Positions 47,713-51,156 of a DNA stretch of 53,413 nucleotides are shown here, piece by piece. How positions within the stretch are numbered: the first letter of the stretch is position 1; the number at the start of each line of letters is the position of its first letter. Source of the stretch: an uncultured Eubacteriales bacterium (GTDB lineage: Bacteria > Bacillota > Clostridia > Peptostreptococcales > Anaerovoracaceae); assembly GCA_900315125.1 (NCBI GenBank), contig OMXT01000040.1:1-53413 (forward strand), read 5' to 3'. A model generated the notes under the pieces. It searched no databases. It was not told the origin of the DNA and saw nothing but the letters and a program-made list of their open reading frames with translations. The position numbers and the translations under genes are program-made.

Positions 47713-49044
47713 ATGGAGAAAACATTTCATATCACGACATTTGGCTGCCAGATGAATGAGCATGACTCGGAGATCATGGCGGGGATGCTCCTGGAGAGGG
47801 GCTACCGGCAGGTCAGCGAGCGGCGTCAGGCGAAGGTTGCCATTATCAATACCTGCAGTGTCAGGGAAAATGCAGACAAGCGGTTCTTCGGAACCCTGGG
47901 GCAGCTCAAGCGGCGGAAGATGGCGGAGCCGGACTTTACGGTCTGCGTCTGCGGATGCATGATGCAGCAGCAGCACATCATCGACACGATCAAGACGAAG
48001 TATCCCTGGGTGGACGTGATATTCGGCACTCATAATATCTCACATTTCCCGGAGCTCCTGGAACATGTGATCCAGGAGAAGACCAAGCAGATCGAGATCC
48101 TGGAGGACGGCAGGACTGACGACGGGGAACTGCCATCCCGGCGGATGTACCAGTGCAAGGCGCTGGTGAATATCATGTACGGCTGCAATAACTTCTGTAC
48201 ATACTGCATCGTGCCCTACACCAGGGGACGGGAGCACAGCCGCAGCCCGGAGCATATCCGGGAGGAGGTCGAGAAACTCGTAAAGGACGGCGTCCGGGAG
48301 GTCATGCTCCTGGGACAGAATGTGAACTCCTACCGGGGCGTTTCGGAGGACGGGAGCACCTGGAGTTTCGCCCGGCTGATCCTTTTCCTTGCGGAGATCG
48401 ACGGGCTGGAGCGGATCCGGTTCATGACGTCTCATCCAAAGGATCTTTCCGATGAACTGATCGATGTGTTCCGCAGCTGCGACAAGCTGTGCAAGAATAT
48501 CCATCTGCCGGTCCAGTCCGGGAGCACGGAAATCATGCAGCGGATGAACCGGCATTATACAAGGGAAAGTTATATGGATACTGTCCGCAGACTCCGGAAA
48601 GCGGTGCCGGATATCACCATGTCTACGGATATCATCGTCGGATTCCCCGGGGAAACGGAGGAACAGTTCCAGGATACCCTGAGCCTGGTGGAGGAGGTCC
48701 GGTACGATTCTGCCTTTACGTTCCTGTATTCCGTGCGGACGGGGACGCCGGCGGCGTCCTACGGAGAGCAGATCCCAGAGGAGGTAAAACACGAACGGTT
48801 CAACCGGCTCGTTGATCTTGTGAACCGGATCAGCGCCGAGAAAAATGCGAAATATAAGGGGCGTGTGGAGCGGGTCCTGGTAGAAGGACCCAGCAAGCGA
48901 AACAGCAAAACGCTCTGCGGAAGAACGGATGGATTTAAACTCGTGAATTTTGAAGGGAGCAGAGAGATGATCGGAACATTTGTAAATGTAGAGATCACAG
49001 AAGGCAAAACCTTCAGTCTGGAAGGCCGGGTGGTGGAAGAATGA
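47713..49044 (+). CDS. miaB: tRNA methylthiotransferase MiaB
   Basis: A 443-aa radical-SAM enzyme that adds a methylthio group to i6A37 of tRNA. The N-terminal domain holds the auxiliary cluster cysteines (FGCQMNEHDSE, NTCSVRENADK, CGCMMQQ). The radical-SAM motif is CNNFCTYCIVPYTRG (~159-173). The C-terminal ~65 residues are the TRAM domain. The start has only a weak ribosome site and lies three bases after gpsA. Its stop overlaps the MurT-like start by ATGA. Confidence 0.96.
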   Translation: MEKTFHITTFGCQMNEHDSEIMAGMLLERGYRQVSERRQAKVAIINTCSVRENADKRFFGTLGQLKRRKMAEPDFTVCVCGCMMQQQHIIDTIKTKYPWVDVIFGTHNISHFPELLEHVIQEKTKQIEILEDGRTDDGELPSRRMYQCKALVNIMYGCNNFCTYCIVPYTRGREHSRSPEHIREEVEKLVKDGVREVMLLGQNVNSYRGVSEDGSTWSFARLILFLAEIDGLERIRFMTSHPKDLSDELIDVFRSCDKLCKNIHLPVQSGSTEIMQRMNRHYTRESYMDTVRRLRKAVPDITMSTDIIVGFPGETEEQFQDTLSLVEEVRYDSAFTFLYSVRTGTPAASYGEQIPEEVKHERFNRLVDLVNRISAEKNAKYKGRVERVLVEGPSKRNSKTLCGRTDGFKLVNFEGSREMIGTFVNVEITEGKTFSLEGRVVEE

Positions 49045-50405
49045 AATTTTACATCGCCCTGTGGTCGGCTAAGCTGATCAACGCTATGATCAATGTGATC
49101 GATTCCAGCAGAGGCACGAACTTCGCCGGTGAGAAGGCAATGAAGATCGATCCGAAGATGATCGCGCATTTTAAGGGGATAGACCCTGAGAAGGTTTTGT
49201 TTATTACGGGAACGAACGGCAAGTCTACGACGAACAACCTCATAAACCATGTACTGAAGGAAAACGGAAAGACCGTGGTTTCCAATCTGGAGGGCGCGAA
49301 CCTGATCACCGGCGTCTGCACGGCGCTGATCAAGGCCAGCAGCCTGTCCGGACGGGTCCGGGCGGACTATTTTATATTCGAGACCGACGAACGCTATGTG
49401 CCGGTGATCCGGGAGCAGCTCCCGGCGGCAAACCTGCTGGTCACCAATCTGCAGAAGGATCAGGTGCAGAGGAACGGCGATCCGGACTTTATCTACCGGA
49501 AGCTGAAGAAGGCTGCTGCGGGCCAGAACATGCGGCTGTTTCTCAATAATGAAGAACCCAGGGCCCGTGCCTTTGACGAGGACGCCCGGGAAGTGGTCAG
49601 CTACGGTGTGGCCAGCCATTCGGAGAGTTTCTGCAAAGGCGGCAGCTATGTGACTATGGCCTGTCCCAAGTGCCATCACCGCATCAACTTCGCCTATTAT
49701 AATAATGACGGGGTAGGACCCTTTGAGTGTTCCCACTGCGGTCACCGCAGCGCGGAGCACGCGGATTACGAAGTAGAAAATGTAAACTTCAAAAAGCGCC
49801 GGTTCACGGTGCAGGGAGCAGAATTTCCCATGCCCTACGATACGCCCTACATGCTCTATAATTACGCGGCGGCAGTAGCTGTGGCGAAGGAGCTGGCGGG
49901 CATCGAGCCCCAGGATGCGGCAAGGGCATTCGGGAGCTTTAAGAACGTGGGAGGACGTTTCGAGATCCTTCATTACAAAGGCAAGACCATCAAGTACATG
50001 CGGATCAAGCAGGAGAATCCGGAGACCCTCCAGACCAGCATTAATGTAATGGCGGCGGATCCGAACCGGAAGATGGTCGCACTGGGTCTCTGTCCCCTGG
50101 TGGACATGATCCCCCATTATGCGAACTCCTTCTATGCCTTTGACTGTGACTTCAGCAAGCTGGTCCGTTCCGATGTGGAGAAGTATTTCTGCTTCTCCGA
50201 GCGGGTATGCTATGACACGGCAAACCGCCTGATCTACGAGGGCGTGGACCCGAAGGACATCAGTATCGCGGACACGGAGGATGTAGAAGTGATCTTCCGG
50301 GAGATCGAGGAGGCAGAAACGGACAATATCTACCTGATCACATGGCTCCATACCTATGAGTATATGGAGAAGATTCTGAAGAAAGAAGGTGTGGAGATTG
50401 AATGA
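49041..50405 (+). CDS. MurT-like Mur ligase (divergent)
   Basis: A 454-aa Mur-ligase-like protein. ATP loop ITGTNGKSTT (~53-62), a four-cysteine zinc ribbon (CPKCHH and CSHCG, ~210-238) inserted in the middle domain as in MurT, and a C-terminal DUF1727-like domain. True MurT with GatD amidates the D-glutamate of lipid II to D-isoglutamine. Differences from the MurT sequences I recall: NlfRDQLDRYGE reads NLQKDQVQRNGD, VKNPAG reads KQENPETLQ, and the NDxxADGxDVSW stretch is replaced by a segment around CPLVDMIPHYAN. Its GatD-like neighbour lacks catalytic residues. It may be a paralogue with another substrate, or use free ammonia. Paired and overlapping with miaB and the GatD-like gene. Confidence 0.8.
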   Translation: MKFYIALWSAKLINAMINVIDSSRGTNFAGEKAMKIDPKMIAHFKGIDPEKVLFITGTNGKSTTNNLINHVLKENGKTVVSNLEGANLITGVCTALIKASSLSGRVRADYFIFETDERYVPVIREQLPAANLLVTNLQKDQVQRNGDPDFIYRKLKKAAAGQNMRLFLNNEEPRARAFDEDAREVVSYGVASHSESFCKGGSYVTMACPKCHHRINFAYYNNDGVGPFECSHCGHRSAEHADYEVENVNFKKRRFTVQGAEFPMPYDTPYMLYNYAAAVAVAKELAGIEPQDAARAFGSFKNVGGRFEILHYKGKTIKYMRIKQENPETLQTSINVMAADPNRKMVALGLCPLVDMIPHYANSFYAFDCDFSKLVRSDVEKYFCFSERVCYDTANRLIYEGVDPKDISIADTEDVEVIFREIEEAETDNIYLITWLHTYEYMEKILKKEGVEIE

Positions 50406-51156
50406 GTTCAGAGTAGCGTGGCTTTTTCCTGATACGCTGTTCCTCCACGGTGAGCGGGGCAATCTCCTGGCACTGGCGAAGTTCGCCCAGAGGGCAGGGC
50501 TGATCCCCCAGGTGGATAAGGTGGATTTCAGCACAGAAGGCTTTGTGCCCCAGGATTATGACGCCATATTCTGCGCGCCGGGGGAGATATCCTCGTTCCA
50601 GACGGTACTGAACTGGCTGGCGCCCTATAAGCAGCAGCTGGCGGATTATGTGGACGACGGCAGGCCGCTGATCGTGACTGGGACGTCTGTGGGACTGTTC
50701 GGCGCCCATGTGGTCCGGGAGGACGGTTCGTCCTTTGCGGGACTAGGCCTGATCGACACGGAGTTCCACGAAAACAGAGATGTTTACGGTGACGATATCT
50801 GGTTTACCTGTGAGTACAACGGCAAGTCCATGGAGATCATCGGGAACCAGATCCAGATGGGGGATTTCCTGATCGGTGAAGAGCAGCCCTTCGGCCATCT
50901 TTCTTACGGATACGGAAATACCGGGAAAGACCGAAATGAAGGGGTGCTCCGGGGAAATTCGATTTTCACGAACACCCTGGGGCCCATGCTCGTGTGCAAC
51001 CCCTGGCTCACGGAGGAGATCATTCGTGTGGGCTGCGCGGCGAAGGATTACGACATAGAGGATTTTGGCTACGATATGAAACTGGAGAAGGATTCCTTCG
51101 CGACGAAGAAGGACTTCATCGAGACGAAGGAAACGAACCTGACGAACTGTAAATAA
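50398..51156 (+). CDS. GatD-like glutamine amidotransferase, catalytic residues absent
   Basis: A 252-aa protein aligning along its whole length with GatD (start VAWLFPDTLFLHGERGNL, middle GLGLID, late GHLSYGYGNTGKDRNEGV). The start is probably TTG 50398, overlapping the MurT-like stop. The only nearby ATG (50402) is out of frame. Compared with Staphylococcus aureus GatD as I remember it, the nucleophile region ICGGYQ reads TGTSVG, so Cys 94 becomes Gly 95, and TYLHGP reads TNTLGP, so His 189 becomes Leu 194. GGGSDREQ reads APGEISSFQ. It should not hydrolyse glutamine. A structural or regulatory partner of the MurT-like protein is likely. Confidence 0.82.
   Translation: MNEFRVAWLFPDTLFLHGERGNLLALAKFAQRAGLIPQVDKVDFSTEGFVPQDYDAIFCAPGEISSFQTVLNWLAPYKQQLADYVDDGRPLIVTGTSVGLFGAHVVREDGSSFAGLGLIDTEFHENRDVYGDDIWFTCEYNGKSMEIIGNQIQMGDFLIGEEQPFGHLSYGYGNTGKDRNEGVLRGNSIFTNTLGPMLVCNPWLTEEIIRVGCAAKDYDIEDFGYDMKLEKDSFATKKDFIETKETNLTNCK

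Follow-up and report, generated by a model that had tools for sequence, protein, structure and literature searches.

A MurT/GatD-like pair lacking the glutaminase residues as a candidate amino-acid ligase for D-Glu of the peptidoglycan stem peptide

The subject of this work is a pair of overlapping genes, here called murT-X and gatD-X, found in a 53,413-nucleotide stretch of contig OMXT01000040.1 (assembly GCA_900315125.1) from an uncultured Eubacteriales bacterium of the Anaerovoracaceae; this whole stretch is referred to as the window and all coordinates are positions in it. The products resemble the two subunits of the isoglutaminyl synthase MurT/GatD, and the residues known to serve glutamine hydrolysis have been replaced in both of them. 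With a probability of about 0.5, MurT-X/GatD-X is an ATP-dependent ligase that attaches an amino acid to the α-carboxyl of D-Glu in the stem peptide and does not use ammonia. What reaction is catalysed, with which amine and on which acceptor, is our inference. The two genes are:

49041..50405, plus strand: murT-X, 454 aa, ATG start; Mur-ligase-like partner with the Pfam domains Mur_ligase_M and MurT_C
50398..51156, plus strand: gatD-X, 252 aa, TTG start and TAA stop; class I glutaminase fold without the catalytic residues

According to the proposed mechanism, MurT-X would activate the α-carboxyl of D-Glu with ATP, as canonical MurT does, the acceptor being the stem peptide on lipid II or on the UDP-precursor. 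An amino acid, through its amino group, would serve as the nucleophile instead of glutamine-derived ammonia, and the incoming amine in many members would probably be D-ornithine or D-lysine from an Orr-type racemase. GatD-X would hydrolyse no glutamine; it would be kept as a structural subunit that the complex cannot do without, and might help to position the amine. The group B cross-bridge of Eubacterium and Acetobacterium would begin with this ligation, whose product in members of the diaminopimelate (DAP) type would be a side group carried by D-Glu. An amino acid is proposed as the amine because the dead state of GatD is fixed, a MurT motif is changed, and racemase and murE genes are neighbours of the pair in some members.

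Fold and glutaminase residues of GatD-X

In phmmer comparisons with GatD proteins of known structure, GatD-X scored 68 bits with 9sq9, 63 bits with 5n9m and 6gs2, and 47 bits with 6fqb. The alignments cover most of the protein and bear out the GatD relationship proposed in an earlier note, made from the letters of this DNA. The NCBIfam models of MurT and GatD are narrow, and those of GatD gave 65-69 bits, below their curated cut-offs of 400-450; a Pfam search of GatD-X gave no domain at E up to 1. The structure model had a predicted local distance difference test score (pLDDT) of 94.7, and its first nine structural matches were all GatD chains with template modelling (TM) scores of 0.81-0.93, those to the S. 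aureus chains being 0.86-0.93. As modelled, GatD-X keeps the class I glutaminase fold of GatD.

The residues were compared in the numbering of S. aureus GatD and MurT, using 35 representatives of the group to which the pair belongs (clade X, described below) and 48 canonical ones. The following replacements were found in GatD-X:

50680..50682, plus strand: Gly95 in place of the nucleophile Cys94 (Gly in 35/35 X, Cys in 48/48 canonical)
50977..50979, plus strand: Leu194 in place of His189, in TNTLGP (Leu in 35/35 X, His in 47/48 canonical)
50782..50784, plus strand: Val129 in place of the glutamine-binding Arg128 (Arg lost in 35/35 X, present in 48/48 canonical)
50578..50586, plus strand: P61-G62-E63 in place of the oxyanion GGGS, from the alignment with S. 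aureus GatD

The oxyanion residues G60 and G95 of S. aureus GatD correspond to Pro61 and Thr96, respectively. The losses of Cys, His and GGGS had been named in the earlier note and were reproduced on the S. aureus numbering, throughout the clade where Cys and His are concerned; the change of Arg128 and that of MurT D349 to Asn362 are additional to it. Neither Cys nor His occurs among the 22 columns invariant in 36 X GatDs. A His at S. aureus position 17 (Tyr17 there) is kept in 32/35 X representatives, without a conserved Cys, and thus no conserved pair of the two residues was found elsewhere in the protein.

Alanine at C94, H189 or R128 of S. aureus GatD is described as abolishing glutaminase activity (PMC5871853). 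The third residue of the catalytic triad is D349 of MurT, shared across the subunits, and amidation fails or nearly fails in the C94 and D349 mutants (PMC6113224). C94, H189, R128 and MurT D349 are all replaced in the pair, and GatD-X and MurT-X together have thus lost all residues known to serve glutamine hydrolysis.

The MurT-X partner

MurT-X scored 140-166 bits with the NCBIfam MurT models, not reaching the cut-off of 800, and 140 bits with S. aureus MurT in phmmer. Its main features are:

49209..49229, plus strand: P-loop GTNGKST, K61 corresponding to S. aureus K59 (Lys kept in 33/33 X covering the site; 2/35 do not cover it)
49380..49382, plus strand: Glu114, corresponding to S. aureus E108 for ATP/Mg (kept in 35/35 X)
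49662..49739, plus strand: Cys4 zinc ribbon with C208, C211, C230 and C233 (all four Cys in 35/35 X)
50112..50135, plus strand: motif PxYxN[TS]FY in place of ADGRDxSW, with Asn362 at the triad position of D349

Judging by the P-loop Lys and Glu108, the ATP site of MurT-X is retained. The residue following the P-loop Lys (49224-49226) is Ser, not Thr, in all 33 X representatives covering the site. Position D349 is occupied by Asn in 33, Asp in 1 and Val in 1 of the 35 X proteins versus Asp in 48/48 canonical ones, and the canonical stretch DNAADGRDxSW has given way to a new conserved DxxPxYxN[TS]FY.

The replacement of this motif by another conserved one would be expected for a changed nucleophile or acceptor, and it speaks against the main rival explanation, in which the pair amidates D-Glu with free ammonia. 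It would then be a lipid II amidase that needs no glutamine and suits organisms fermenting amino acids, where ammonia is plentiful. Aminicella, Emergencia and Hornefia, which are amino-acid or butyrate fermenters, are among the X hosts and would fit such an enzyme. The S. aureus GatD C94G complex also favours it, having lost glutamine use and kept its NH3-dependent amidation unaffected at pH 8.5; at pH 7.5, however, the S. aureus complex showed no use of NH3 (Munch et al., PMC3266927). In the same report MurT alone was inactive. Since C94G still amidates with NH3 and MurT alone does not act, a dead GatD would suffice for ligation of a free amine by MurT. On balance we consider the use of free ammonia rather unlikely.

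Extent of clade X and selection

The X proteins form one clade in the MurT tree, with a support of 100 in the Shimodaira-Hasegawa-like approximate likelihood ratio test (SH-aLRT), and the suggestion of a distinct subfamily was therefore well founded. The hosts are Eubacterium sensu stricto, Acetobacterium, Emergencia, Hornefia, Aminicella and metagenome-assembled genomes; named genomes include Eubacterium callanderi, aggregans and barkeri as well as Acetobacterium species.

The gatD-X frame is open from 50398 to 51156 and overlaps the murT-X stop (50405) by 8 nt, in line with the intact, coupled frame described previously. The ratio of nonsynonymous to synonymous substitution rates (dN/dS) was 0.06-0.16 for GatD-X and 0.02-0.08 for MurT-X in the six pairs that gave a value for each, with dS approaching or exceeding 1 in five of these. 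Both proteins are, on this sequence evidence, intact and under purifying selection, and the low dN/dS together with the kept ATP site of MurT-X agrees with the selection for a non-hydrolytic role that had been supposed. A decaying pseudogene or a sequencing error, of negligible probability and with nothing found in its favour, was refuted by the absence of Cys, His and Arg from 35/35 X representatives; the low dN/dS also speaks against it.

The genome of the window (98% complete) contains a single MurT-like and a single GatD-like gene, both belonging to this pair; a second, canonical murT-gatD pair was searched for in it and not found. In a class sample of 291 genomes, 7/8 X genomes had no other MurT/GatD match, and the eighth, G280, carried an X pair and a pair of group Y (see below). 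Among 40 genomes of the E. callanderi family, 28 had X alone (motif checked), 7 the canonical pair only and 1 (G1070) both; the rest comprised 1 X-scoring fragment (G1057) and 3 genomes with no match. X and canonical pairs are thus mutually exclusive for the most part, as would be the case for two enzymes competing for one carboxyl. Two distinct regions of the MurT/GatD tree lack the nucleophile Cys, and a GatD-like gene alone cannot be taken as evidence for wall amidation.

Gene neighbourhood and racemases

An Orr-like racemase gene lies directly 3' of gatD-X in six genomes, with scores against NF040742 (cut-off 480) of 411 bits in G053, 339 in G301, 284 in G418, 287 in G364, 394 in G317 and 308 in G447, the last being an actinomycete. 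The murE gene precedes murT in G301 and G317, and is divergent and adjacent in G418 and G364; in these four genomes (79-90% complete) it encodes the sole MurE found at E 1e-40. In locus L072, alr (226 bits, cut-off 168) and a gene for a SpoVB/MurJ-like flippase are situated just upstream of the pair. The free-ammonia reaction leaves the murE and orr neighbours of these members, and the association with racemases, unexplained.

The murE gene as a neighbour, present as the sole copy found in four genomes, also argues against a different carboxylate, outside peptidoglycan, as the target of the pair. The relatives of MurT do include ligases for other acids (pseudomurein, CfbE, cyanophycin); both sequence and fold are nevertheless nearest to MurT/GatD, and this explanation is considered very unlikely.

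In the class sample, a racemase scoring at least 340 bits was found in 44/291 genomes, namely in 8/8 X genomes versus 36/283 others (P 1.5e-7). Counted by family it was present in 5/5 X families versus 15/78 family codes (P 1.4e-4), a count in which kinship is only partly removed and from which a few families of the sample may be missing. An Orr match was obtained in 16/20 X genomes searched; in the 3/3 Eubacterium sensu stricto and 5/5 Acetobacterium genomes tested it was a single copy scoring 405-435 bits.

The neighbours of the pair differ among X members, being Orr-like, alr, an AMP-ligase or none of these, which would suit the same ligation with an amine other than a D-diamino acid, i.e. 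glycine, an L-amino acid or a diamine (cadaverine, putrescine). Glycine and diamines linked to the α-carboxyl of D-Glu do occur in other bacteria. Where a racemase is linked, however, it speaks for a D-amino acid, and no Selenomonas or Veillonella, known diamine-wall genera, appeared among 49 named X matches, although the scan was made with two peptide patterns and the absence is weak. Such an amine is clearly unlikely, and D-ornithine or D-lysine is retained as the probable substrate in many members.

In the window, the murT-X ATG at 49041 overlaps the stop of miaB, and with the overlap of murT-X and gatD-X the two genes belong to a single run that includes gpsA and miaB. The pair is located between the PlsY-GpsA-MiaB run and a gene for an M50 protease. 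In two other loci an AMP-binding ligase gene is found just upstream of murT-X (L046:2956-4617 and L067:2802-4535), and a relative of this ligase (29-37% identity) is encoded just upstream of an Orr-like racemase gene in L124, L126, L127 and L128.

Cell wall type of the hosts

Group B bridges, described since about 1969, begin at the α-carboxyl of D-Glu and not at the third residue. Guinand is said to have reported in 1969 D-Lys or D-Orn in the group B bridge of Butyribacterium rettgeri (E. limosum), and Acetobacterium woodii reportedly has a B-type murein, as found by Kandler and Schoberth in 1979. The motif DNPR of MurE is associated with DAP. The MurE motifs of the E. callanderi family agree with such walls: six genomes of Eubacterium sensu stricto and Acetobacterium were examined and have DNPA or EDPS at this place (A. 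bakii also has a second MurE copy with DNCR), and 4/4 canonical-pair members have DNSR; in Thermotoga MurE, D(D,N)P(N,A) is associated with lysine (PMC6113224). The wall peptidoglycan of E. limosum is listed as containing Ala, Glu, Lys, Orn and Ser (PMC4791908), and the wall types of the genus Eubacterium as several A types and B2-α (PMC11382707, Table 1).

Several observations weigh against the ligation of a racemase-derived amino acid. There is no racemase gene beside the pair in the window, and the two Orr-like genes of its genome (512 and 361 bits) are on other contigs. In the window's own family Orr-like genes occur in 114/148 genomes, whatever the pair, and do not discriminate there. All six pairs with a linked racemase fall within a single seven-row X subclade, which includes the unlinked L088, so the linkage represents one event, kept or moved between two phyla. 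Where representatives had 900 bp or more of sequence after the pair, a racemase gene followed in 6/33 X versus 1/44 canonical cases (P 0.04), the canonical one being an alr-like gene in opposite orientation. The Orr search in the 20 X genomes gave no match in G446, G448, G449 and G450, G446 being the genome with alr beside the pair. Finally, a DAP-type MurE (DNPR) is present in the X genomes G053, G448, G449 and G450, and therefore the presence of X does not in itself indicate a group B wall. The MurE motif of the window genome is EDPR. In hosts with DNPR or EDPR the product may be a side group on D-Glu and not a bridge of group B.

The earlier note had proposed an ammonia-using or otherwise repurposed pair. 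This is partly supported; the gene neighbours in some relatives and some of the host taxa (Eubacterium, Acetobacterium) favour an amino acid over ammonia, an amine which that note had not considered.

Other Cys-less pairs

Cys-less GatD/MurT pairs were also observed in a separate group, Y. Those in L199, L201, L248, L249 and L251 adjoin a "sugar-transfer associated" ATP-grasp gene (PF14397, 5/5), and L199 and L201 have two pairs each with the ATP-grasp gene in between. In G401, a family member, a Y pair accompanied by an ATP-grasp gene (PF14397) lies between a PlsY-GpsA-MiaB run and an M50 protease gene, where the window has X. Y-type Cys-less pairs were present in the class of G446 as well (L165-L167, L170-L172, L174, L178, L180, L191 and L192), in genomes of 0.8-1.6 Mb, and several of them have an altered MurT P-loop, e.g. 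GSSGKGS.

Comparison with known systems

The reference lipid II amidating system is the isoglutaminyl synthase MurT/GatD (S. aureus 6gs2/5n9m, S. pneumoniae 6fqb, S. pyogenes 9sq9). X shares with it the two-gene order, the GatD fold, the MurT domains, the P-loop, E108 and the Cys4 zinc ribbon. It differs in that C94, H189, R128, G60 and MurT D349 are gone, the DNAADGRDxSW motif is replaced, the NCBIfam scores are far below the cut-offs, and some members have murE or orr as neighbours.

The racemase beside gatD-X matches the whole length of the Orr model NF040742 at 284-411 bits, below its cut-off, and the linked racemases are nearer to each other than to the second Orr-like copy of the window genome.

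We know of no gene for the ligase adding the first amino acid of the group B bridge to D-Glu. In listings and excerpts of open-licence papers dealing with MurT, with inactive GatD and with walls of the diamine or group B kind, neither a Cys-less GatD nor a group B bridge ligase was recognised. MurT/GatD amidates the α-carboxyl of D-Glu (PMC3266927), and a bridge-starting ligase would target this very carboxyl. If the proposed function is true, MurT-X/GatD-X provides a two-gene candidate for the start of the group B bridge, with a companion racemase and named hosts.
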